Shown one piece after another: positions 4,572 to 54,347 of a stretch of DNA of 64,000 nucleotides. A model generated the notes under the pieces. That model worked only from the letters and a program-made list of their open reading frames with translations. It was not told the origin of the DNA and searched no databases. Both the position numbers and the translations under genes were made by a program. The stretch's first letter is position 1, and the number at the start of each line of letters is the position of its first letter. Origin of the DNA: Streptomyces sp. A2-16 (GTDB lineage: Bacteria; Actinomycetota; Actinomycetes; Streptomycetales; Streptomycetaceae); NCBI RefSeq assembly GCF_018128905.1, contig NZ_CP063808.1, positions 2,790,001-2,854,000 of the forward strand. Reading direction: 5' to 3'.

Positions 4572-4715
4572 GTGCGCGCATGCTAGCGGGCCGACACGAC
4601 TCCTACGTACCGGTGTTCGAAGTGTGGCATTCGCATGACACCTGACCCGAAGAGGGCTGTCGGGGCCACGGGGATGTGGTTACGCTGCGCGGACGGTCCT
4701 GGACTGGAGGTACGG

Positions 4716-6512
4716 ATGCGTCGCCCTGTCGCACGGAAACTGTCGGTCCTGGCGGTTTCGGCCGCCGTGGTGTCGGTGGGGGCGGCAGCACCGCCGCACG
4801 CCACCTCGACACCCGAGAAAGTACCCGTCGCCGTCGGCTACGGCGGCGCCGTCTCCAGCGTCGACGCGGACGCCTCCGCCGCCGGCATCGAGGTCCTGCG
4901 CAAGGGCGGCAACGCGGTCGACGCGGCCGTCGCCACCGCCGCCGCGCTCGGCGTCACCGAGCCGTACTCCTCCGGCATCGGCGGAGGCGGCTACTTCGTC
5001 TACTACGACGCCAAGTCCCGTACGGTCCACACGATCGACGGCCGCGAGACGGCACCCCTGACCGCCGGCTCCGACCTGTTCCTGGAGAACGGCAAGCCGC
5101 TCGCCTTCGCCGACGCCGTCAGCAGCGGACTGAGCGTCGGCACCCCGGGCACACCGGCCACCTGGGCCACCGCACTCGACGAGTGGGGCAGCAGATCGCT
5201 CGGCACCGTCCTCAAGCCCGCCGAGCGGATCGCCCGGGACGGGTTCACGGTCGACGACACCTTCCGCTCGCAGACCGCGTCCAACGAGACACGCTTCCGG
5301 TACTTCCCGGACACGGCGAAGCTGTTCCTGCCCGGCGGTCAGCTGCCGGTCGTCGGCTCCACCTTCAAGAACCCCGACCTCGCCCGCACGTATGCGGAGT
5401 TGGGCCGCAAGGGCGTCGGCGCGATCTACCGCGGCCGCCTCGGCGACGAGATCGTCGACACCGTGAACCACCCGCCCGTGGACCCGGGGTCGGGATGGAA
5501 CGCGCGGCCGGGGCAGCTGTCCGAGAAGGACCTTGCGGCCTACCGGGCCGAGCTCCAGAAGCCGACCAAGACCTCCTACCGCGGGCTCGGCGTCTACTCG
5601 ATCGCGCCCTCCTCCTCCGGCGGGACGACGGTCGGTGAGGCCCTCAACATCCTTGAGAACACCGACCTTTCGAAGGCCAGTGAGGTCCAGTACCTGCACC
5701 ACTACATCGAGGCCAGCCGGATCGCGTTCGCGGACCGGGGGCGCTGGGTCGGCGACCCGGCCTTCGAGGACGTACCCACGAAGGGGCTGCTGTCACAGCG
5801 GTTCGCCGACTCGCGCGCCTGCCTGATCAAGGACGACGCGGTCCTCGCGAGCCCGCTGGCGCCGGGGGACCCGCGGCATCCCGCGGCATGCTCGGACCGG
5901 GGCACGGCGGCCCCGACGACGTACGAGGGCGAGAACACCACGCATCTGACGGTGGCCGACAAATGGGGGAACGTCGTCGCCTACACGCTGACCATCGAGC
6001 AGACCGGCGGCAGCGGGATCACCGTTCCCGGGCGTGGGTTCATCCTCAACAACGAGCTGACCGACTTCTCCTTCGCTCCGGCGAACCCGGCCGTCCACGA
6101 CCCGAACCTGCCGGGACCCGGCAAGCGGCCGCGGTCCTCCATCTCCCCGACGATCGTGCTCGACGGGCACAACAAGCCTGTGGTGGCGCTGGGTTCACCC
6201 GGCGGGGCGACCATCATCACCACCGTCCTGCAGGTGCTGACCGAGTTCGTGGACCGCGGACTGCCGCTGGTGGACGCGATCGCCGCGCCCCGGGCGAGTC
6301 AGCGCAACGCCGCGCAGACCGAGCTGGAGCCGGGGCTGTACAGCAGTGGGGTGCGGTCGCAGCTGGAGGCGATCGGGCACTCGTTCAAGGTGAATCCGGA
6401 GATCGGGGCGGCCACCGGAGTGCAGCGGTTGCCGGGTGGCAAGTGGCTGGCGGCGGCCGAGACCGTGCGGCGGGGCGGGGGGTCCGCGCAAGTGGTGCAC
6501 CCCGCGCCGTAG
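4716..6512 (+). CDS. ggt: Gamma-glutamyltransferase, secreted
   Basis: This is a 598-residue gamma-glutamyltranspeptidase precursor, which hydrolyses or transfers the gamma-glutamyl group of glutathione and related compounds outside the cell. The start at 4716 is chosen because CTGGAGG precedes it and a signal peptide follows (basic MRRPVARK, then an Ala/Val core). The autocatalytic cleavage site lies in GENTTHLTV, with the first Thr (about residue 408) as nucleophile and N-terminus of the small subunit. Other family blocks are present: GGNAVDAAVA near the N-terminus, SGIGGGGYF, and SSSGGTT in the large subunit. The length is normal. It is a single gene convergent with the Clp ATPase gene (6-base gap). 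Confidence 0.95.
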   Translation: MRRPVARKLSVLAVSAAVVSVGAAAPPHATSTPEKVPVAVGYGGAVSSVDADASAAGIEVLRKGGNAVDAAVATAAALGVTEPYSSGIGGGGYFVYYDAKSRTVHTIDGRETAPLTAGSDLFLENGKPLAFADAVSSGLSVGTPGTPATWATALDEWGSRSLGTVLKPAERIARDGFTVDDTFRSQTASNETRFRYFPDTAKLFLPGGQLPVVGSTFKNPDLARTYAELGRKGVGAIYRGRLGDEIVDTVNHPPVDPGSGWNARPGQLSEKDLAAYRAELQKPTKTSYRGLGVYSIAPSSSGGTTVGEALNILENTDLSKASEVQYLHHYIEASRIAFADRGRWVGDPAFEDVPTKGLLSQRFADSRACLIKDDAVLASPLAPGDPRHPAACSDRGTAAPTTYEGENTTHLTVADKWGNVVAYTLTIEQTGGSGITVPGRGFILNNELTDFSFAPANPAVHDPNLPGPGKRPRSSISPTIVLDGHNKPVVALGSPGGATIITTVLQVLTEFVDRGLPLVDAIAAPRASQRNAAQTELEPGLYSSGVRSQLEAIGHSFKVNPEIGAATGVQRLPGGKWLAAAETVRRGGGSAQVVHPAP

Positions 6513-6518
6513 TCGTCC

Positions 6519-9080
6519 TCAGCCGGGCGGGGGCTGGTCCTGCGGTTCCCCGCCCCCCTGAGGAGTCCGTGTGAACGTCAGGCTGCCTGCCGCCACGTCC
6601 ACCGTCACCGTGTCGCCCTCTGCGACCGTGCCGTCCAGCAGGAGGCGGGACAGCTCGTTGTCCACCTCCCGCTGGATCGTGCGGCGCAGGGGGCGGGCGC
6701 CGTACTCCGGCTGGTAGCCGCGCTCCGCCAGCCAGTCCACCGCGCTGTCCGTGAAGGTGACGGTGATGCCCTGGGCCCGGAGCAGGCGGCGGGTGCTCTC
6801 CAGCAACAGCTTGGTGATCTCGCGCAGTTGCTCTCCCGTGAGCTGACGGAAGACGACCACCTCGTCGATGCGGTTCAGGAACTCCGGGCGGAAGTGCTCG
6901 CGCAGGGGACGCAGAATCCGTTCCCGTCGGGCCTCCTCGTCCGCGTCGGCGCCGCCGGGACCGAAACCGATGCCCGCGCCCCGCCGGGTGATCGCATCCG
7001 AGCCGAGGTTGCTCGTCATCACGATCACCGTGTTGGTGAAGTCGACCGTGCGGCCCTGGGAGTCGGTGAGCCGTCCGTCGTCGAGGACCTGCAGGAGGAT
7101 GTTGAAGACGTCCGGGTGCGCCTTCTCCACCTCGTCGAGCAGGAGCAGCGAGTACGGGTGCCTGCGCACCACCTCGGTCAGCTGGCCCGCCTCCTCGTGG
7201 CCCACGTATCCGGGCGGGGCGCCGACCAGGCGGCTGACCGTGTGGCGCTCCTGGTACTCGCTCATGTCCAGGCGGACCATGCGGTCCTCGCTGCCGAACA
7301 GGGACTCGGCGAGGGCGCGGGCCAGTTCGGTCTTGCCGACTCCGGTCGGGCCGAGGAAGAGGAAGCTGCCGATCGGGCGGTTCGGGCTGGCGAGGCCCGC
7401 ACGGGAGCGCAGCACGGCGTCCGAGACGACCCGTACGGCCTCGTCCTGGCCGACCACGCGCTCGTGCAGGTGGTTCTCCAGGCCGAGCAGCCGGTCCTTC
7501 TCCTCCTCGGTGAGACTGCTGACCGGGATGCCGGTGAGGCGGGAGAGCACTTCGGCGACGGCCTCCGCGGTGACCTCCAGGTGCTGGCCCTCGTCGGCCT
7601 CGTCGCCCCCTGACGCCTCGCCCATCCGCTGCTTCAACTCGGCGATGCGGTCCCGCAGTTGGGTGGCCTTCTCGTACTGTTCGTCGGCCACCGCCTGGTC
7701 CTTGTCGTGGGTCAGCTGCTCGACCTCGCGCTCCAGGGCCCGTACGTCCGTGCCCTTCGTGCGGGCGCGCAGTCGTACCCGCGCTCCTGCCTGGTCGATG
7801 AGATCGATCGCCTTGTCCGGCAGACGGCGGTCGGAGAGATAGCGGTCGGACAGCTCCACGGCGGCCACCAGCGCCTCGTCGGTGTAGCGGACCTGGTGGT
7901 GGGCCTCGTAGCGGTCGCGCAGCCCGCGCAGGATCTCGATCGCGTCGGCCACGGTGGGCTCCGGGACCAGGATCGGCTGGAAGCGGCGGGCCAGGGCCGC
8001 GTCCTTCTCGATCCGGCGGAACTCCCCCAGCGTGGTCGCGCCCACGATGTGCAGTTCGCCGCGGGCCAGGGCGGGCTTGAGGATGTTGCCTGCGTCCATC
8101 GAGCCGCCCTCGCCGCCCCCGCCCGCGCCGACGACCGTGTGCAGCTCGTCGATGAAGACGATCAGCCGGTCGGAGTTGTCGCGGATCTCGCCCACGATGG
8201 TCGTCAGGCGCTCCTCGAAGTCGCCCCGGTAGCGGGTGCCGGCGACCACCCCGGTCAGGTCGAGCGCGAAGAGCCGGCGTCCGATCAGCACATCCGGCAC
8301 GTCCCCGTCGACGATCCGCTGGGCCAGCCCCTCCACGACGGCGGTCTTGCCGACGCCCGCGTCACCGATGAGCACCGGGTTGTTCTTGCCGCGCCGGGAC
8401 AGCACCTCGATGGTCTGCTCGATCTCCTCGTCCCGGCCGATCACAGGGTCGATACGGCCCTGGCGGGCCAGGTCGGTGAGATCGCGGCCGTACTTGTCGA
8501 GAGTGGGCGTGCCCGTGCCCCGGGGTGCCTCGCCGCGGGGTTCCCCGGTGTCCGGGGCCGCCTCGGGAGGCAGTCCGGCGGGGGAGAACCGGGTCGAGTT
8601 GAGGATGTGCCCGGCCGCCGAGTCGGGGTTGGCGGCCAGGGCGCTGAGCACGTGCTCCGGGCCGATGTAACCGGCGCCCCGGGCCCGGGCCAGCTCGTGG
8701 GCGTCCAGCAGGGCGCGCTTGGCGGCCGGGGTGAGGGACAGCGAGGTGGGTGGCGGGGCCTCCTCCGGCTGGTGCTGGACGGGGCCGGAGCGTTCGTCGA
8801 TCTCCGAGGCGAGCGAGTCGGGATCGGCGCCCGCCCGGCTCAGCAGCGTCCGGGTCGGCTCGGCCGCGAGGGCGGCCCGCAGCAGATGCTGGGTGTCCAG
8901 ATCCCGGCTGCCGTGCTCGGCGGCGTACTGCGCGGCGCCCCGCACCAGCTCCCGGGCCGGCCGGCTCAACAACTGGCCGATGTTGATCTGCCGGGGACCG
9001 GTGCGCGGTCCGCCGAAGAAACGGGCGAGGAACTCTCCGAAGGCGTCATAGCCTTCCTGTCCGCTGAAACCGCTGGTCAT
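6519..9080 (-). CDS. AAA+ Clp unfoldase (ClpC/ClpB type), 853 aa
   Basis: This Clp ATP-binding subunit unfolds or remodels proteins, possibly feeding the ClpP protease. The chosen ATG (9080) gives an N-terminus MTSGFSGQ that is natural for the Streptomyces family; an in-frame ATG at 9098 is possible. The order is: N-terminal Clp repeat domain (about 30-170), AAA-1 with Walker A GDAGVGKT and Walker B VFIDELH, a short coiled middle domain ([10 protein letters not shown]...RIAELKQRM), AAA-2 with Walker A GPTGVGKT and Walker [12 protein letters not shown], and a C-terminal D2-small domain (EYGARPLRR). The short middle domain suggests ClpC-like rather than full ClpB. The C-terminus is Gly/Pro-rich. 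Confidence 0.93.
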
Positions 9081-45984: not shown

Positions 45985-46199
45985 GCGCCCTCACGCCTTC
46001 CGCACGCCCTGGCCCCGCTTCCGCACCGCCCTCACCGGGCTTCCGCGCGCCGCGGCCGGGCTTCTGCACCGCCCTCACCGGGCTTCCGCGCGCCGCGGCC
46101 TGGTTTCCGCACTGCCCTCACCGGGTCTCCGCGCGCCGCGGCCGGGCTTCCGCACTGCCCTCACCGGGCTTCCGCGCGCCGCGGCCCGGCTTCCGCACC
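45985..46199. repeat. Tandem array of 43-bp repeats
   Basis: Four similar 43-bp units begin at 46028, 46071, 46114 and 46157, and a degenerate fifth precedes them at about 45985. The unit starts GCCCTCACCGGGCTTCCGCG and continues with CGCCGCGGCC. Copies differ by a few substitutions. The period is not divisible by three, so it is not a protein repeat. It fills most of the otherwise empty 325-base stretch 45918-46242 between the NUDIX start and the broken ADP-ribosylglycohydrolase gene. Confidence 0.9.
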
Positions 46200-46242
46200 G
46201 CCACGCCCCGGCTTCCCAGAGCCCCGGTCCGGTCCGGCCGCC

Positions 46243-46640
46243 TCAGGCCTCCGCCTCCGCCCCCCCGGCCAACCGCAGTGTCCGCTTCGTCAGTTCGCTG
46301 ATGTGCACCCCGTCGCAGCCGAACACCGCGCTGCGCACCCGGTCCTCCAGCGGTTCCTTCCCCTGGTCCGGGACCGCGTCCGCCCCGGTGAGCACGCCGG
46401 CCACCGAACCCGCGGTCGCGCGTTGGAGTCGGTGTCCAGACCGCCCCGGACGGTGAGCGTGATGGTGCGGGTGAAGTCGCCGTCGCCGTACGGCAGCCCG
46501 GCGGTCTCCTCCCCGACCGTCGTCAGCGTGTGCAGTTTTCCGTCGTACAGCAGCCTGCTCTTTGAGTGCAGCCCACGCGGAAGAGACCGTCACCAGTGAA
46601 CGGCACCAGCCGTTCGAGCGCGTCGGTGTGGAACATGTTC
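46243..46640 (-). pseudogene. Frameshifted C-terminal piece of an ADP-ribosylglycohydrolase
   Basis: In reading order the recognisable stretches are LYDGKLHTLTT, YGDGDFTRTITLTVRGGLDTDSN (in one frame, to about 46424), then ATAGSVAGVLTGAD and DRVRSAVFGCDGVHISEL in the next frame to the stop at 46243. GGLDTDSN-GATAGSV is the metal-binding signature near the C-terminus of ADP-ribosylglycohydrolases, and one base is missing exactly at its Gly codon. A second apparent one-base loss lies near 46563. The N-terminus of the same family is at 54054-54347 on the same strand. A short coding-like leftover (HCLLAHLMLGTPAF) at about 46690-46730 is unassigned; 46641-46816 otherwise shows nothing. Confidence 0.75.
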
Positions 46641-46816
46641 GGGCTCTCCGTGGCCGTTGGTGGACCGCGCGCATCGTAAGGACGGAACGAAGGCCGGGGT
46701 ACCCAGCATGAGATGGGCGAGCAGACAGTGTTTCTCGCGTGCCTGCTGCCCATCGTCTGCGAGGGCATCGGGGGTGTCCCTACCGGGGGAAGGGGCACCC
46801 ACGCGTTGGACGGTTC

Positions 46817-47584
46817 CTACCCCAGCCGGGCGAAGTGGGACGTCAGGAGGTGGGAGTCGAGGAGGGCGACGTCGGCCGTACGGTCGGCGCGGGCGTAGCC
46901 GGCCAGCATGCGTTTGGTCAGGACGAGGGCTTCGTGTGAGCGTCGCAGCAGTGGCTTCGTCCATCTCTCGATGACGGCGTCCAGCTGGTCGAGGGGGGCT
47001 GTCTGGTGGAGGAGCCCGAGGCGGTGGGCCGTGGGCGCGTCGAACTGGTCGGAGGTGAGCATGAGTTCGCGGATCCTGGCGACGCCGGCTTCGGAGATCA
47101 AACGTCCCATGGCTCCGCCCCAGGCGGGCGGTAGGCCCACTCCGACCTCCGGCATGCGGAACCGACAGGTGTTTGCGCCTGCCCGCAGGTCGCAGTAGGC
47201 GGCGAGTGCGAGGCCGGCGCCGAGGACGCCGCCGTGGAGCCGTCCGATGGTGATGGCGTGGGTCGTCTCCAGGGCCTGGCACAGGCGGTGGGCCTTGTCG
47301 GCGATGCGCCGCAGGGTGGCGCCCGTCGGGTCTGTGGCGAGGGCGGCCGCGTATTCGCCGCGATCGGCTCCTGTGCAGAAGTCCTCGCCGAGAGACGACA
47401 GGACCAGCACCCGGACGTCGGGGGGCAGATCGTCGAGGAGATCGGTGAGGGCCTCCACGACGGCCATGCTCAGTGTGTCGTGGTGCTGGGAGGGATTGAG
47501 CCGTACGTGGAGCACGGCTCCCTCCTGCTCGACTCGTATGGACTCACGGGAGGCCGTGGCGGGGGGAGCGGGTGCTTCGTTCAT
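46817..47584 (-). CDS. Enoyl-CoA hydratase/isomerase-family protein, last gene of the conservon operon
   Basis: This 255-residue crotonase-fold protein has an oxyanion-hole region (GEDFCTGADRGEYAA; GRLHGGVLGAGLALAAYCDL) and the MPEVGVGLPPAWG loop. The usual second catalytic Glu positions are partly changed (RFRMPEVGVG retains one Glu), so hydratase activity is not certain. The ATG overlaps the P450 stop by four bases, showing it belongs to the same transcript as the cvn genes. Acyl-CoA enzymes are not a usual conservon component. Confidence 0.88.
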   Translation of the reverse strand: MNEAPAPPATASRESIRVEQEGAVLHVRLNPSQHHDTLSMAVVEALTDLLDDLPPDVRVLVLSSLGEDFCTGADRGEYAAALATDPTGATLRRIADKAHRLCQALETTHAITIGRLHGGVLGAGLALAAYCDLRAGANTCRFRMPEVGVGLPPAWGGAMGRLISEAGVARIRELMLTSDQFDAPTAHRLGLLHQTAPLDQLDAVIERWTKPLLRRSHEALVLTKRMLAGYARADRTADVALLDSHLLTSHFARLG

Positions 47585-48834
47585 GCGAGGGCGACATCCA
47601 GGTTCAGCAATCGCCTGAACGCCACTCTGGGTGCTCTCGCCGGTGGGCGCACGAGAGTGAGGCGGGGCAGGCGACTGATCAGTTGACGGAGCAGGGTCTG
47701 GGCCTCCAGCCGGGCCAGCGGGGCGCCGAGGCAGTAGTGGATGCCTCCGCTGAAGGCGAGATGGGCAGGTCTGCGGTGGGGGTCGAAACGTCCAGGACGG
47801 GGGTGCTTGGCCGGGTCCCGGTGGGCGGCGCCCACCATGAGGTGGACCATGTCGTCCTTGCGGATCCGGACGCCCTCCAGGAGGCAGTCGGTGGCGGAGA
47901 CGCGGCTGATGACGTGCGTAGGAGGGTCATAGCGCAGCGCCTCCTCGACGAAGGCGGGCACGAGTTCGTCGGGATCTGCGGCGACCAGGTCCCAGTGGCC
48001 CGGGTTCTCGACCAGCTGGAGCGTCATCGTCGACAGCAGGGTGGAGGTGGTCTCCAAAGCTGCCAGCAGGACGAACAGAGCCAGGTAGTAGACCTCTTGG
48101 TCGGCCTTGTCCTGGTCGGGTTCGAGTGAGTCCCATGTGGTGATCCACCGTGACACGGGATCCTCGCCCAGGCGGGGGCGCCGGTCGCGCACCAAGTCCC
48201 GGAAGTATGCGCGCAGTTCTTCCATGGCGACGTCGGAGCGGGCCAGCTGACTTGCGGAGGGGAGCAGTTCCTGCGTAAAGACCTGTTCGTGGGTCAGTTC
48301 CCGCAGTCGGGGCCAGTCGGCGGCCGGCAGCTCGAGCCAGTTGCCGATGGTGGCGATCGGCAGTTCTTCGCTCACCAGGGCGGCGAAGTCTGCTTCTCCG
48401 TCACGCAGCCGGTCGGCAAGGGCGTCGAGGAGATGGTCGGTGGCCTGGGTGACGGTCCGGCCCAGCCGCTCGAATGTCCCGCGGTCGAAGGCGACGCCGG
48501 CCGCCCGGCGGGCCCGGGTGTGGTCCGGTGGGTTGAGGGCCGGCAGCGTGCTGCCGATCTCACGCGCCGAAGGGGCGCTCCAGCGGGTGCGGGGTCCCTG
48601 ACGCTCCCGCCAGGGTTTGTCCGGCTCCAGCCATGCCCTGTTGCGCAGTATGTGGTCGCACAGGTCGTAGCTGGTCACGAGGTATCCGCCCCAGGGCGCG
48701 GGAATGATCGCGCCCTGGGAGCGGAGCTCCTTGTAGATCGGGAAGGGATTGTCCTGGCCTCGTGCCGTCCGTAGACGGGAGATGAGGGAAACTGCGGTCC
48801 GGCGGTCGAACGACGGCGTCGTGACGCTTCCCAC
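47581..48834 (-). CDS. Cytochrome P450 with canonical ExxR and heme motifs
   Basis: This 417-residue soluble bacterial P450 starts at GTG 48834 after GAAAGGGG. The I-helix is FVLLAALETTST, the K-helix ExxR is in VEEALRYDPP, and the heme-Cys loop is FSGGIHYCLGAPLAR. It is a full-length monooxygenase. The arrangement with a second P450 and cvn genes matches conservons that carry P450 pairs (CYP154/CYP157 type in S. coelicolor, recalled). It overlaps the enoyl-CoA hydratase gene by four bases and is 92 bases downstream of the other P450. The substrate is unknown. Confidence 0.94.
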   Translation of the reverse strand: MGSVTTPSFDRRTAVSLISRLRTARGQDNPFPIYKELRSQGAIIPAPWGGYLVTSYDLCDHILRNRAWLEPDKPWRERQGPRTRWSAPSAREIGSTLPALNPPDHTRARRAAGVAFDRGTFERLGRTVTQATDHLLDALADRLRDGEADFAALVSEELPIATIGNWLELPAADWPRLRELTHEQVFTQELLPSASQLARSDVAMEELRAYFRDLVRDRRPRLGEDPVSRWITTWDSLEPDQDKADQEVYYLALFVLLAALETTSTLLSTMTLQLVENPGHWDLVAADPDELVPAFVEEALRYDPPTHVISRVSATDCLLEGVRIRKDDMVHLMVGAAHRDPAKHPRPGRFDPHRRPAHLAFSGGIHYCLGAPLARLEAQTLLRQLISRLPRLTLVRPPARAPRVAFRRLLNLDVALA

Positions 48835-48926
48835 GATGACGGCCCCTTTCTGAGCACAGCCGCCATACGTACCCGCCGGGTGATTGAAGCATCCAATAAC
48901 ACAGTGTTCTTATAGGGTTACTTACG

Positions 48927-50282
48927 TCACTCGCCCCGCGTCCATGCCAGGAAGCGGCTGAACAGGCCCTTGGCAGGTGCAGCGTGAGCCGGCCGGGAGG
49001 CGGCGGGCGCGACGGGGGCCACCGACGGTCGAACGGTCTCCGCGGCCTTGGGAGCAGTTGAAGCGGCTGACGGCGCCGAGGGCGGAGTGAACCGGATGGG
49101 AACCGTCACCAGTGAACGGCTCCACGGTGATTCGCTCCAGGCGAGCGACTTGAAGGCGATCCGGGTCTCGACATCGGGCAGCCGGTTGAGCAGAGCCTCG
49201 ACGGCAGCGACGACGATCATGACGGCTGGATCCTTGGCCGGGCAGGCATGCGGCCCGGCTCCGAATGCCAGATGCGCCTTGGAGCTGAGCTGCTCGCGGT
49301 GCACGTCCAACCTGGGGTCGGTGTTGGCCGCCGCGAAGGAGATGAGAACCGGATCGCCGGCGCGAAGCGTCTTGCCGTCGACTTCGACGTCATGGGTCGG
49401 GTAGTGGCCCGCATAGTTGGCGATCGGCGGGTACGACCACAGTGTCTGGGCGACTGCGTCCTCGACCGACCGCCCTTGGGGCCAGTCCTCGCTGAGGTAC
49501 AGAGCGGTGGCGGTGCCGATGGCGGCCGCCAGCGGCGCGGTGCCGCCGGAGAGCAGGGTGACGAGCTGGTGGAGTACTTCCTCGTCGGTGAGCTGGGCGG
49601 GGTGCACCATCAGACGCGTTGTCAGGTCCGCTCCGGGGCTCTGGCGCTTGAGAGCGATCAGCTCCATGAGCGCCGCGACGAGTATCTCGTCCGCACCGGG
49701 CGTGCCTTCGAAAATGCCGCTGATCCCTACAATGACGCGGTCGCCGATCTCCGGCGGGCATCCGAACTGGTCGCTGAAGACGAGCAGCGGCAGCGGTCCT
49801 GCGTAGTCCGCCATCAAATCTGCCTGCCCGCGGGCGCCGAAGCGGCTGATCAGATACCCGGCGGACTGCTGCACCTGCCGGACCAGCTGGAGCTCATTGA
49901 TCGTGGCCAGACTCTCAGTGACGGGCTGGCGCAGCCGAGCGTGGCGTGAGCCGTCGGCGAAGAGCGCGTTGGGCCGGTAACCCATCATGGGCAGGGCCGG
50001 GCTGTCCTGGGGGACACGCCCCTCGTTGAGGGCGTTCCAGCGTCGGGAGTCCCGGACGAACGTCGTGGAGTCCTGCAAGATCTTCAGTGCCGTGTCGTAG
50101 CTGGTGACCAACTCGACCTCGACCCCGGGCGCAATGTCCACAGGGGCGATCGGGCCGAGCGAGCGCAGGTACTCGTAGGTGCCCTCGATGTCGGAGGCGA
50201 ACTGCGGTCCGTACAAAGGGACGTTGCCGTGTGCGGGGCAGCCGGGTGGTATCTCCGGGCTGGTGTCGTGGTGGGGTTGCAT
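48927..50282 (-). CDS. CYP157-like cytochrome P450 lacking the ExxR motif, with Ala/Pro tail
   Basis: This 451-residue P450-fold protein starts at ATG 50282 after AGGAG. The heme loop FGAGPHACPAKDPA keeps the Cys. The K-helix, where E-x-x-R is expected, reads QTLWSYPP (in AVAQTLWSYPPIANYAG), a double replacement like that known for CYP157 proteins. The final 50 residues are an Ala/Pro/Thr-rich tail ending in an amphipathic segment KGLFSRFLAWTRGE that could bind membrane. It lies directly after cvnD. It may have a structural, redox-partner or regulatory role with the second P450. Confidence 0.92.
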   Translation of the reverse strand: MQPHHDTSPEIPPGCPAHGNVPLYGPQFASDIEGTYEYLRSLGPIAPVDIAPGVEVELVTSYDTALKILQDSTTFVRDSRRWNALNEGRVPQDSPALPMMGYRPNALFADGSRHARLRQPVTESLATINELQLVRQVQQSAGYLISRFGARGQADLMADYAGPLPLLVFSDQFGCPPEIGDRVIVGISGIFEGTPGADEILVAALMELIALKRQSPGADLTTRLMVHPAQLTDEEVLHQLVTLLSGGTAPLAAAIGTATALYLSEDWPQGRSVEDAVAQTLWSYPPIANYAGHYPTHDVEVDGKTLRAGDPVLISFAAANTDPRLDVHREQLSSKAHLAFGAGPHACPAKDPAVMIVVAAVEALLNRLPDVETRIAFKSLAWSESPWSRSLVTVPIRFTPPSAPSAASTAPKAAETVRPSVAPVAPAASRPAHAAPAKGLFSRFLAWTRGE

Positions 50283-50292
50283 GCCGGGGCTC

Positions 50293-50853
50293 CTAGGCGA
50301 GGGTGGACATGAGGTGTTGCACGAGGGTGATGAGGGCCTCGGCCGACGACTGCTGACTGCGCGCATCGACGTTCACGACGGGGATCTCCGCAGGGAGAAG
50401 CAGGGCCTCGCGTATCTCGTCGAGATCGTACTTCGGCGTCCCGTCCTTGGTGTTGACGCCGATGGTCATGGCGAGGTCGAATTTTTCGACCAGGTCCAGC
50501 ACCGGGAACGCCTCGTCGAGCCGGTCGGGATCGACGAGCACCAGGGCGCCCAGAGCGCCTCTCGACAGTTCCTCCCACATCTCCTTGAAACGCTCTTGGC
50601 CCGGCGTTCCGAAGAGATAGAGGACCAGTTTCTCGTTGAGGGTGCGCCGGCCGAAGTCCATGGCCACGGTCGTGGTGGTCTTGTCCGGCATGTTCGAGAG
50701 GTCGTCGTAACCCTCGCTGGCCTCGGTGATTTCCTCTTCGGTCCGGAGCGGGACGATCTCGGAGAGGCTGCCGATGTACGTGGTCTTGCCGACCCCGAAG
50801 GGGCCCACGACGAGGACCTTTACGGCCGTGGTGACGGTTGGTTCCAGGTACAT
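50293..50853 (-). CDS. cvnD: CvnD: small Ras-like GTPase of the conservon
   Basis: This 186-residue GTPase of the MglA-like/ATP-GTP-binding conservon group has a P-loop GPFGVGKTTY, a DFG switch II region (AMDFGRRTL) and NTKD in place of NKxD. It is a molecular switch at the membrane surface downstream of CvnA and CvnB. The ATG lies one base after the cvnC stop. It is followed by the P450 genes. Confidence 0.95.
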   Translation of the reverse strand: MYLEPTVTTAVKVLVVGPFGVGKTTYIGSLSEIVPLRTEEEITEASEGYDDLSNMPDKTTTTVAMDFGRRTLNEKLVLYLFGTPGQERFKEMWEELSRGALGALVLVDPDRLDEAFPVLDLVEKFDLAMTIGVNTKDGTPKYDLDEIREALLLPAEIPVVNVDARSQQSSAEALITLVQHLMSTLA

Positions 50854-50854
50854 G

Positions 50855-51238
50855 TCACGCTCCGAAACTCTTCTGCAAGCCGTCGACGACGGCTTGGAGC
50901 AGTGCGCGGTCATGAGCCACGGCCCGCGGCGTGGGAGGCCGCACGAAGACCAGCCCGACCTCTGCCAAATGTGCGATCAGTATCCGCACGATGCCCAGCG
51001 GCAGTTGTGTGCGCCCGGCTACTTCCGCCACAGACAGGAGACCGTCGGAGACCAGGTCCATGACCTCGCGGGCTTCCGGGGTGAGGGTGCGTGCCGCTGC
51101 GGACATGCCTTCCTGGGCAGTAACGAGCGCGGTGCGCGAGTACTCGTGGTCCGCGGGCAGGTCCCGGCCCTTGGCGATCACGAAAAGAGGTACTAATTCG
51201 GACGTCAGTTCCAGCGGTGGTTCTTGATCGTCATGCAT
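50855..51238 (-). CDS. cvnC: CvnC: DUF742 winged-helix-like conservon protein
   Basis: This 127-residue DUF742 protein has the typical helix-turn-helix-like core (LLSVAEVAGRTQLPLGIVRI, LAEVGLVFVRP). It is the third partner of the CvnA-B-D complex and is thought to act with the GTPase. Its start overlaps the cvnB end by eight bases. Length is typical. Confidence 0.95.
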   Translation of the reverse strand: MHDDQEPPLELTSELVPLFVIAKGRDLPADHEYSRTALVTAQEGMSAAARTLTPEAREVMDLVSDGLLSVAEVAGRTQLPLGIVRILIAHLAEVGLVFVRPPTPRAVAHDRALLQAVVDGLQKSFGA

Positions 51239-52070
51239 GGCCCACCGTCCCTGTCTGCGGTGCTGAGGCCGCGCTCAGCGCGGGCACCACGTCTTCCAGA
51301 CGCGAGAGGAACTCTTCGATGTCGCAGTCGTGTTCAGCCGAGGCCGCCAGGTAGGCCCCGGGACCGGCCGAGATCAGAAAGACCCAGCCGTGCTCGAACT
51401 CCACGAGCGTTTGGCGCCAAGTGTCGTGGCGCCCGCCGGCGAACGGCGCCGTGGCCCGGCTGTAGGCCACCATGCCCGACATCGCTGCGGAGATGATGTC
51501 CGCCATGTCCTTGCCGATGCTTGACGTCGTGCCCCTGAGCAGGCCATCGATGCCGAGCAAGACGGCGTGGCGCGCTCCCCGGACCTCGGCAACTGCCTTG
51601 TCCAGCTCAGGAAGCACGGAACCCAGACCACCCGCCGTCTCGTCCTGGACCAGCTGGGCATCCACGGCCACAGCGGCGCCGTTCACGCGGGGAGCGGATG
51701 TGAGGTGGTCACCCAGCCGGGCGACGAGCCGTTGCATGCGGTACGAGAGTGCCTGCAAATCAACATCGGGGGCGGCGGCAGCGGCCAGGTAGGCACCCCT
51801 TCCCGCCTCCGTCACCAGGATCCATCCGTCCTCGAACTCGACGAGGGTCTGATTCCACCGCCACTCCTTCACCGGCCCTGCGAACCGGGCCGTCGCCCTG
51901 CTGAGCGACTGCATGCTGGCCATGGCGGCCGAGATGTCCTTGATGCCGCCGCTGGTCAGGCCGTCCGTGGCGCCCTTGGATATGCCGTCCGCGGACAGCA
52001 CAACGGCATGCCGTGCGCCGGGGATGTTGTCCACGATGTCCTTGACCATCCACGACAGGTCGTCGGTCAT
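51231..52070 (-). CDS. cvnB: CvnB: tandem double roadblock/LC7 protein
   Basis: This 279-residue protein contains two roadblock/LC7 domains in tandem: about 1-120 (RHAVVLSADGISKGATDG, ASMQSLSRATARFAG, TLVEFEDGWILVTEAGRGAYLA) and about 145-265 (RHAVLLGIDGLLRGTTSS, MVAYSRATAPFAGG, TLVEFEHGWVFLISAGPGAYLA). Roadblock proteins bind the GTPase and regulate its nucleotide state. Known CvnB proteins, as I recall, have one such domain of about 140 residues, so this is a duplication and fusion. It overlaps cvnA by four bases and cvnC by eight bases. Confidence 0.93.
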   Translation of the reverse strand: MTDDLSWMVKDIVDNIPGARHAVVLSADGISKGATDGLTSGGIKDISAAMASMQSLSRATARFAGPVKEWRWNQTLVEFEDGWILVTEAGRGAYLAAAAAPDVDLQALSYRMQRLVARLGDHLTSAPRVNGAAVAVDAQLVQDETAGGLGSVLPELDKAVAEVRGARHAVLLGIDGLLRGTTSSIGKDMADIISAAMSGMVAYSRATAPFAGGRHDTWRQTLVEFEHGWVFLISAGPGAYLAASAEHDCDIEEFLSRLEDVVPALSAASAPQTGTVGHA

Positions 52071-53266
52071 CGGTCTTCAGACCCTTCAGGTGACGAAGCC
52101 TCGGTCTCCCGGCCCGCGAGGGTGCCGCGCTGGAAGCCCCCCAGGCTCCGCCCGGAACGGCTGGCGGAGACCTCGCGCACCGGCGACGGTGCACTGCGGA
52201 GGCCGGCGTCGGTGACACTTGCGATGGGGGTCTGGCGCTGGCCGCGCTTCGGCAGGCCGTGCGCTGTACGTCCGACAGCCTCTACAGCGTGCGGCTGGCT
52301 TGTCTGGCTCTCGTTGCGTCGGATGCTGACAGGCGCGTCCTGGGCAGGCGGTGGCGTCTCCTCCATGGTCCACAACTCCTCGGGCAGGCGAACCACGGCC
52401 CTGACACCGCCGTACCGGGAAACTCCGGTGACGTCGACGCTGAAACCGTACTGACGGGCGAGCAGGCCGATCACGGAGAAACCGAATTTGGGCTGGGTTC
52501 CCATCTGAGACAGCCGAGGGGCCGTCTCGCCGGACAGCAGTTCCATCGCCGCCTGCCGGTCCTCGTCGCTCATGCTGACGCCGGCGTCATCGATCACGAT
52601 GCACATGTAGTTCTGCACTCGCTTGAACGTGACCTCGATCGGCGCATCCTGCTGTGAGAACGACGCGGCGTTGTCCAGCAGTTCCGCCACCGTCAATGCG
52701 ACCGGCGCCACCGCCGTGGCCTTCAGCGCGACATTGCTGTCCTGCAACAGCTCGACTCGCTGAAAATTCCTGATCTGGCCCTGTGCGCTGCGCACCACGT
52801 CGTAGATGCTCGCGGCCCTCTTGCGGCGACCGAGCGGTCCTCCGCACAGCACGGCGATGCCCTCGGCCCTGCGTGCCATCTGCGCATTCGCGTGATGCAC
52901 CTCGAGCAGGTCCTTCAGGACAGGGTGGCCTCCGTAATCGCGCTGAATCCTGTCCAGGAGCGTCGTGGACTCCGCCGTAAGAGTCTGCAAGAAACGGGCC
53001 GCTCCCTTCAGAACGCCCTTGGTCCTGTCCTCTGCCGCCTGCTCGGCTTCTTGGATGACGGCAGCTCGCTCTTCCTGGAACTGCACCAACTCGTTGTTCG
53101 CGGCCTCCACCTGACGCTGAGCAGCGGCCTTCGCCTGCTGCACGTCAGCCTCCGCCCGCCGCAACTTCGCCCCCAGGGCTCTGCTACGGAGAGTGAGCAC
53201 CACGACCGCAGCAACGGCTATCGCCGCCACCGAGGCCAGGCACCATATGAGCGCCTCTTGATTCAT
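52067..53266 (-). CDS. cvnA: CvnA: membrane histidine-kinase-like protein
   Basis: This 399-residue protein starts at ATG 53266 after GGAAAGG; upstream ATGs lack a site. It has an N-terminal membrane helix (EALIWCLASVAAIAVAAVVV), then a coiled coil (AEADVQQAKAAAQRQVEAAN), a region with a possible phosphoacceptor His (LLEVHHANAQMARRAEG), and a GHKL ATPase domain (VAELLDNAASFSQ; CIVIDDAGVSMSD; GFSVIGLLARQYGFSVDV). The C-terminus is disordered. There is no extracellular sensor domain, so this is a short CvnA. It heads the operon cvnA-B-C-D-P450-P450-enoyl-CoA hydratase. Confidence 0.93.
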   Translation of the reverse strand: MNQEALIWCLASVAAIAVAAVVVLTLRSRALGAKLRRAEADVQQAKAAAQRQVEAANNELVQFQEERAAVIQEAEQAAEDRTKGVLKGAARFLQTLTAESTTLLDRIQRDYGGHPVLKDLLEVHHANAQMARRAEGIAVLCGGPLGRRKRAASIYDVVRSAQGQIRNFQRVELLQDSNVALKATAVAPVALTVAELLDNAASFSQQDAPIEVTFKRVQNYMCIVIDDAGVSMSDEDRQAAMELLSGETAPRLSQMGTQPKFGFSVIGLLARQYGFSVDVTGVSRYGGVRAVVRLPEELWTMEETPPPAQDAPVSIRRNESQTSQPHAVEAVGRTAHGLPKRGQRQTPIASVTDAGLRSAPSPVREVSASRSGRSLGGFQRGTLAGRETEASSPEGSEDR

Positions 53267-54053
53267 GGGAGCCTTTCCCGGCACGGTTGCAGACATCGGT
53301 CGATCTATCGCGCGATGATCCACAGCGCATCCACCAAGAACTGAACGGCTGCTGTCACGGCAAGGAAGCCAACCCCCATATGGCACCCGACCTGAGTGGA
53401 TCAAGGTCGCGGACGCGGGCATGCTATCACCGCAACCATTGCCCTCAGCAGGCGCCTCAGGAGACAGCCGACGACATCAACACGACTGTCACACAACGCT
53501 GTTGGCAGGCTCCCTGCGCGAACGAACCATCGGCGTCGCTCAGCACAGGAGAAGAGCTGTCGGGCCGTCACCTGGGGGTCCTGGGGCCCATGCGGGCATT
53601 GCCGCATGCGTCCGCGCCGTTTCCTGCTGACAAGCGGTCAGTCCGCTGTTCACGGGCGTGCTCATGGCGTCGCCGCGGCCGTGTCAGCACAAAGCGCGAG
53701 GGGACTTGGCGCCGGAGTGCAGAACCGTTGTACGGGGCCCTCACCGTCATGGGGCGGCCACGACAGGCCGTCGACCCGGAACGCTGTCTGTCTGAGCGAT
53801 CGGACCATGACGGGGTGGACGACACAGTGACGATCCGGCAGGTACTCAAGGTGCGGCGCTCGACATCGAGCGGCGCCGGCCGCCCTGTGCATCAGTCTGA
53901 ACGCCGTGGAGTCGGAGGACGAGGTGTACTTCAAGGCGCCGCGCGATGGCGAGCGGAATCGCCTCCCGCCCCGACCGGTCGGCGCCGGCAGACATCGACG
54001 AGCCGGGCTGGGTGACGGACTGGGGGCAGTGCGCCGCGCCGTGCCGCCTCGCT
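53267..54053. other. Long gene-free stretch upstream of cvnA
   Basis: About 790 bases without a convincing gene. Codon structure is disordered in all frames and composition is less G+C-rich than elsewhere between 53300 and 53500. A weak minus-strand promoter (TAGCAT near 53423 with CTGAGG 16 bases upstream) could serve the cvn operon. The right end (after about 53840) has short coding-like runs on both strands, none complete. It abuts the broken edge of the ADP-ribosylglycohydrolase fragment at 54053/54054. Confidence 0.6.
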
Positions 54054-54347
54054 GAGGCCGAGCATGGCGTAGCCGACGTCGTCGTCCCGGCAGCTGCCGT
54101 GGATCCGGCCGCGCACGCACTCGCGCCACTCGGGCCGCAGCTCGAAGCCGTCACTCTCGGCGACGGGCTCGGGAAGGCGGTCGGTCAGGGGCAGGGCGGC
54201 GGCCTGCCGGAGACAGCGGTCGATCCGGTCCCGCGTCCACAGGTCGCCCTGTTCGACCGGTTGGCCGAGCATGTTGCCCGCGATCCGGCCCAGCCGGCCC
54301 CCGAGGATGCGGTCGGCGAGCTCTGGCTCAGTGCCCACAGGGGTCAT
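54054..54347 (-). pseudogene. N-terminal piece of an ADP-ribosylglycohydrolase
   Basis: It begins at ATG 54347 (MTPVGTEPEL) and encodes 98 residues that match the start of ADP-ribosylglycohydrolase (DraG-like) proteins: LADRILGGRLGRIAGNMLGQ, then RGRIHGSCRDDDVGYAMLGL, with the Asp-rich metal site. Similarity stops abruptly after AMLGL at 54054, where the continuing frame becomes Arg/Pro-rich. The C-terminal signature of the same family is 7.4 kb away on the same strand (46243-46640). The two pieces read as one gene with the middle lost and an island inserted. Confidence 0.8.

Follow-up and report, generated by a model that had tools for sequence, protein, structure and literature searches.

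A seven-gene P450/crotonase conservon inside a broken ADP-ribosylglycohydrolase gene of Streptomyces sp. A2-16, and the other sites of the same operon in related species

We analyzed a 64,000-nt stretch of DNA from Streptomyces sp. A2-16 (the window, at 2.79-2.85 Mb of a 9.77-Mb contig; unlabelled positions are those of the window, and G and L numbers are our handles for genomes and loci). Two pieces of an ADP-ribosylglycohydrolase gene lie there, both on the minus strand and in gene order as judged by DNA alignment to eight intact relatives, and between them is an insert of 7,522 bp (46532-54053) with a complete seven-gene operon of the conservon type that includes two cytochrome P450 genes and a crotonase gene (Table 1). 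As described below, the enzyme gene is intact in most sister loci compared, and nearly the same operon is found at other chromosomal sites in two related species.

Table 1. Coordinates of the enzyme-gene remnants, the insert edges and the operon genes in the window.
Feature	Position	Strand	Basis and remarks
3' remnant of ADP-ribosylglycohydrolase gene, frameshifted	46243..46531	-	84-92% DNA identity to eight intact genes; 1-base and ~48-bp deletions
Scrap of a foreign gene's 5' end, with internal deletion	46550..46687	-	83% and 80% identity to two stretches of L235
Shared unit	46817..53577	-	Present in S. pseudovenezuelae (92%); in S. griseorubiginosus (87%) the match runs to 53508; one end is the last gene's stop codon
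Enoyl-CoA hydratase/isomerase (crotonase), last operon gene	46817..47584	-	Overlaps the second P450 gene by 4 bases
Second cytochrome P450	47581..48834	-	Has the EEALR and heme Cys motifs; CYP164A2 is its best solved relative
First cytochrome P450, cvnE type, CYP157-like, 479 aa	48927..50366	-	Heme Cys kept; K-helix Arg replaced by Trp (AQTLW)
cvnD, Ras/MglA-like GTPase	50293..50913	-	ATP_bind_1, Ras and Roc matches; GPFGVGKT P-loop; true start probably downstream of 50913
cvnC	50855..51238	-	DUF742 (7.3e-24)
cvnB	51231..52070	-	Two Roadblock/LC7 stretches (Robl_LC7 7.7e-32)
cvnA, histidine-kinase-like	52067..53422	-	HATPase_c; LPKR near C-terminus; true start probably downstream of 53422
Left border DNA	53578..54053		476 bp; only match a weak 77-bp stretch on a plasmid
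5' remnant of ADP-ribosylglycohydrolase gene, codons 1-98	54054..54347	-	DNA match to intact genes, up to 94%, ending at 54054; excess of amino-acid changes

The break on the 5' side is sharp. A query holding the 5' piece matches 176 of 392 Streptomyces genomes, A2-16 included (E<=1e-10), and among the matches listed every row from another genome ends at query base 303-307, which is at window position 54054 or up to four bases before it is reached. Six of the eight comparisons with intact genes place the start of the 3' piece at 46531, and the other two place it at 46505; this piece has lost one base after the GLDTDSN codons, and ~48 bp are gone from between two 12-bp repeats. The missing middle of the gene amounts to ~450 bp (~150 codons), the break points being 452 bp apart in G164 and G165. 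That the parent gene belongs to the family is indicated by an intact relative (L011:259-1338) that scores 167.6 bits to PF03747 (cut-off 26.2), while the two remnants by themselves fall below the Pfam cut-off and gave no Pfam match at E<=0.001. With its middle gone, a frameshift, and both pieces under the family cut-off, the locus holds no functional full-length enzyme gene, and since the 3' piece is also frameshifted we regard the gene as dead. The 5' piece has lost constraint and the broken gene is decaying: it has 8-12 amino-acid-changing differences from each of five intact copies, with 0-7 among the intact copies, and its ratio of nonsynonymous to synonymous divergence (dN/dS) is 0.18-0.38 against them, with 0.00-0.18 among themselves. 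Seven other matches to PF03747 above cut-off are present in the A2-16 genome, so the loss of this copy may matter little. We also note five copies of a GC-rich 43-bp tandem repeat at 45986-46202, between the NUDIX gene and the enzyme remnant; the stretch matching this repeat region is short or absent in several sister loci.

A preliminary description of the locus, drawn from its letters and open reading frames, had reported an N-terminal family fragment ending abruptly at 54054, which alignment to the eight intact relatives bears out, and a frameshifted C-terminal fragment at 46243-46640. The frameshift of the latter is real but its start was misplaced and belongs at 46531, since 46550-46687 is a scrap of another gene. 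Its account of two same-strand, correctly ordered fragments around a complete operon, with the middle of the enzyme (put at about 150-200 residues) absent, agrees with the alignments.

All seven operon genes are open and have the expected Pfam domains, and neighboring genes share 4-8 bases at the cvnA/cvnB, cvnB/cvnC and P450/crotonase junctions. The four components of a conservon are present, namely the CvnA ATPase, CvnB, CvnC, and CvnD with its P-loop. Like a P450-type (cvnE) conservon, the operon has P450 genes directly downstream of these, and HATPase_c is the sole domain found in CvnA. The first P450 shows the motif pattern of CYP157, the arginine of EXXR being lost and the heme cysteine kept, and its solved relatives include CYP154C1; a CYP154 label for the second P450 was dropped in view of its best solved relative (Table 1). 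The dN/dS of the operon genes is 0.08-0.29 against their counterparts in S. pseudovenezuelae and S. griseorubiginosus, and the operon is under purifying selection. It is present in a single full-length copy in the A2-16 genome.

In sister genomes, the ADP-ribosylglycohydrolase gene is flanked by a glycerate kinase gene on one side and a NUDIX gene on the other. We compared nine sister loci base by base, and in eight of them the enzyme gene is intact and free of any insert; the ninth, from S. pseudovenezuelae (L213), has a broken copy of its own. The reading frame is open in all 11 intact copies checked, and S. griseorubiginosus (G245) has its enzyme gene intact (L203). Among 29 glycerate kinase loci from other Streptomyces genomes, both ends of the enzyme gene were found in 10 and the 5' end alone in one, where the locus stops; glycerate kinase adjoins NUDIX with no enzyme gene between them in seven, and the remaining 11 have neither arrangement within the 1.5 kb available per side. 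The split is not universal in the genus, and both pieces match one parent gene.

The two nearest relatives found of the window operon occupy two further sites in the chromosome. One, from S. pseudovenezuelae DSM 40212 (L099), has 92% DNA identity over 46817-53577, with the match stopping at the crotonase stop codon; the other, from S. griseorubiginosus DSM 40469 (L098), has 87% over 46818-53508. The flanks of neither operon match those of the window. The operon thus has a different site in each of three related species. In A2-16 itself (C1:3,995,125/3,995,180) and in G164, G245 and G165, the two L099 flanks adjoin each other with no operon between them; in L099 the operon sits within ~9.7 kb of added DNA that has other genes too. 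At the L098 site, A2-16 has 7.0 kb of other DNA, partly common to G164. Two of the three placements are replacements, with losses of ~0.45 kb and 6-7 kb. Insertion with deletion into a once intact gene, as the preliminary description had proposed along with a search for empty sites and for the operon elsewhere, is supported by the eight intact, insert-free sister loci and by the different locations of the operon in the closest two species found to bear it, one of these locations being empty in A2-16. At the L099 site, G164 has an overlap of 15 bp that was considered as a target duplication and rejected as an ambiguous alignment between two convergent gene ends. Beside the operon in L099, positions 4594-6595 appear by eye to hold oxidoreductase-like and SnoaL-like genes, and this block recurs at unrelated places in G216 and G164 with 79-96% identity.

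To describe how widely the operon type is distributed, we turn to the genus. A crotonase match (E<=1e-50) is present in 46 of 150 Streptomyces genomes, A2-16 included; 17 of these 46 were fetched, nearly all of them the best-scoring, of which 14 have all seven genes (at least 55% protein identity) and three a more distant form. Around the first P450, 98 loci were found and 80 kept, to which two plasmid loci and the window were added. For the operon tree, L176 and L177 were left out and 83 sequences entered, eight of which were dropped for lack of one of six required genes, leaving 75. For the flank count, L219 and L220 were removed as duplicates of L101 and L104 (leaving 73), as was L121, in which second-P450 and crotonase matches lie upstream of cvnA; this left 72 seven-gene operons in order, and the number of clusters stayed the same. 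When flanks of up to 8 kb per side were grouped by single linkage, these 72 complete operons fell into 34 flank clusters, 21 of them with a single member. The figure of 34 is if anything low, because the link between L099 and L125 is a 609-bp match at 66% that probably reflects no true shared place. With 1.5-kb flanks the operons form 46-48 clusters, and the same method applied to 1.5-kb flanks of glycerate kinase loci as a control put 28 of 29 in one cluster. A flank is shared by 30 of 69 operon pairs with at least 90% protein identity (19 of 52 among those with at least 5 kb on every side), and by 12 of 14 pairs with at least 95%. The operons of S. hygroscopicus, S. murinus and relatives (L119, L133, L138, L139, L160) form one clade with one flank cluster, and ada is present in four of these five loci.

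A related P450 conservon was seen upstream of ada in L119, L133, L136, L139, L152 and L160 (S. hygroscopicus, S. malaysiense, S. griseofuscus, S. murinus and two Streptomyces sp.). These ada-side operons are oriented opposite to the window operon, with an intact enzyme gene 4-5 kb beyond in the three loci that reach it; the second P450 and the crotonase were not found within the L136 and L152 loci.

The operon type also occurs on plasmids. A search of 72,556 plasmid records for the second P450 gave relatives in nine (E<=1e-60), and in two of the nine the identity is 77%. These two plasmids are linear, 678 and 713 kb in length, and each carries the seven-gene operon, in a context that differs between them. 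A stretch of 17.3 kb in the first aligns colinearly, at 97%, with a 2.4-Mb contig from Streptomyces sp. M41. CvnD relatives (E<=1e-20) are found in 111 plasmid records, 91 of them from Streptomyces and 107 below 60% identity, and conservon GTPases on plasmids are therefore not rare. The arrangement in the window had at first looked unexpected because conservons were taken to be stable chromosomal loci, a background that the 34 flank clusters among 72 operons and the giant plasmids do not support for this type.

At each edge of the insert, outside the shared unit, lies further DNA. The left border (53578-54053) is covered by none of the matches listed for 392 genomes (E<=1e-10), nor by those listed in a second genus-wide search, which for the most part gave the same places as the first, and comparison with the plasmid collection by peptide gave E values of 1-4 only. 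The scrap near the other edge derives from a 256-aa open frame (L235 779-1549) that is whole in another Streptomyces (G243); this frame has no match in the plasmid collection (E<=1e-3) and no Pfam family.

The enzyme gene has been broken in a second species. In S. pseudovenezuelae (L213, L226; G416:C6 ~707937-724390) it is interrupted by an unrelated insert of ~16.3 kb, with the first break after the same bases (GGCCTC) as in the window and the NUDIX gene on the far side. Judged by eye, this insert has nitrilase-like, MMPL-like, two-component and oxidoreductase-like genes. The shared base raised the idea of an insertion ancestral to both genomes, which we set aside: the gene is intact in G258, the closest to S. 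pseudovenezuelae among four genomes compared over this region (95%). The two breaks at one base therefore look independent, which would make this a preferred insertion spot; with two cases, it is only a lead.

Taken together, we consider it probable (roughly 0.8) that a pre-existing seven-gene conservon was put into the enzyme gene by a replacement event, with the route of its arrival and trimming being what we infer. Such an event would have cost the enzyme gene ~450 bp, and fragments of other DNA would have stayed behind at the two edges. The operon DNA may have arrived on a larger accessory or foreign segment, delivered probably by conjugation or on a giant linear plasmid of the sort that carries this operon type, and may have been joined by illegitimate recombination or end joining, after which trimming would have left only the selected operon intact. 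In kind, the event is ordinary Streptomyces gene flux. We regard this conservon type as an accessory cassette that changes place and not as a fixed chromosomal locus, and the window as a clear case of a roaming conservon.

Several observations weigh against this interpretation. The flank control came from genomes other than those of the operon loci and used shorter flanks than the main count. Differing flanks can arise from other insertions beside a fixed gene, and the empty sites exclude this only for the three closest copies. Given the shared flanks of 12 of the 14 closest pairs, the position of the operon is preserved over short times, and in some clades it is the same throughout. By open-reading-frame reading and Pfam the unit has no transposase or integrase, its two edges have no common 11-mer, direct or inverted, and there are no terminal repeats; neither the recombinase gene nor the defined ends of a transposon or integrative element were found, and the joining mechanism is therefore not visible. 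Finally, against S. pseudovenezuelae the synonymous divergence (dS) of the operon equals that of the core genes (0.223 and 0.219), as if the operon had been vertically inherited and only moved.

This equality favors an account in which the operon was present in the common ancestor of A2-16, S. pseudovenezuelae and S. griseorubiginosus and moved within each chromosome with no transfer, and the operon tree is consistent with it, grouping the three with S. griseorubiginosus outside, in the order of a five-gene core tree. However, about two losses and two moves would be needed, because G315, G164, G165 and G258 gave no CvnB match (20 genomes were searched, with three matches: G245 at 84%, G206 and G284 at 58%). 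In the core tree, whose genes come from one region, G315, G164, G165 and A2-16 form one group (local support 0.97), and the placement of G258, among operon-bearing genomes, is weak (0.45). In addition, operon dS is 1.3 times core dS between A2-16 and S. griseorubiginosus (0.369 vs 0.275), and 1.3-1.4 times in both comparisons with that species. The unevenness of dS between genes (0.14-0.33 in the operon, 0.18-0.46 in the core) favors neither transfer nor relocation. We hold movement from a common ancestor to be a serious contender at somewhat less than even odds; transfer between relatives and within-genome movement with losses are both possible. It is very unlikely that the operon moved only a few kb, from the ada-side position held in S. 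hygroscopicus, S. griseofuscus and relatives: in six of 80 named loci the operon, or most of it, does lie beside ada in the same neighborhood, but the three ada-side loci compared have only 72-73% DNA identity to the window, and the four in the tree fall within a separate clade, whereas the window operon groups with copies at unrelated sites.

The repeated relocation of a near-constant unit ending at the crotonase stop codon might suggest a dedicated transposable element with a conservon as its cargo. The lack of a transposase or integrase, of terminal repeats and of a constant target, together with the two replacements among three placements, makes this improbable, with only a slim chance of being right. 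As for a programmed intervening element whose excision would restore the enzyme gene, the ordered pieces on one strand fit such a scheme, but it is already refuted by the ~450 bp that are missing, by a 3' piece that is frameshifted and shortened, by a 5' piece that has lost constraint and by an insert with no recombinase, and we give it next to no weight. In the other direction, a broader version of the replacement reading can be imagined, in which seven-gene P450/crotonase conservons are self-contained signalling cassettes that giant linear plasmids spread between Streptomyces and that return to chromosomes at many different sites, with the enzyme gene as a favored entry point; we consider this speculative and rather unlikely as a whole.

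Accessory islands and giant linear plasmids of Streptomyces are patchily present, differ in their landing sites and have scraps of other genes at their edges. The window operon type is likewise patchy, with varied sites and edge scraps, and it differs from the accessory islands in that the moving unit is a compact, intact signalling operon, and neither a biosynthetic cluster nor an integrative element with a recombinase of its own. Closer relatives are conservons 9-12 of S. coelicolor, which carry P450 genes; P450-type accessory genes are reported to accompany CvnA proteins that have no sensory domain (PMC8510531, PMC13343842). The likeness extends to the order and domains of cvnA-D, the P450 gene that comes next, and a CvnA with no detected sensory domain. 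In contrast to conservons 9-12, the window operon has two P450 genes and a crotonase gene, and operons of its type change their chromosomal site from one sister species to another and are present on giant linear plasmids as well. An LPxR motif near the CvnA C-terminus is mentioned in PMC4316618, and PMC3599690 describes CYP157 as conservon-linked and without the arginine of the K-helix EXXR motif. On that description the first P450 resembles CYP157 in its conservon linkage and in the loss of this arginine, a likeness by motif and linkage only; in contrast to the EQSLW form of CYP157 it reads AQTLW, the glutamate being lost too. By analogy with other conservons, the operon may act as a membrane-tethered kinase-GTPase switch whose input would be tuned by the degenerate P450, and the second P450 and the crotonase might make or break a small signal molecule.

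We found no description of the seven-gene form among the titles of the literature on conservons and enoyl-CoA hydratase, and no paper on conservon mobility by title or opening lines in that on conservons and linear plasmids or horizontal gene transfer, although a 2026 paper mentions 'possible horizontal gene transfer' of conservon operons (PMC13343842). What is new here is the roaming and the seven-gene form; the conservon itself is of an already known kind. Research on conservons treats them as conserved regulators of development and of antibiotic production. If it is true that one class of them roams, also on giant plasmids, then gene transfer can alter the signalling repertoire of a strain, and the naming of conservons by chromosomal position would fail for the roaming class.

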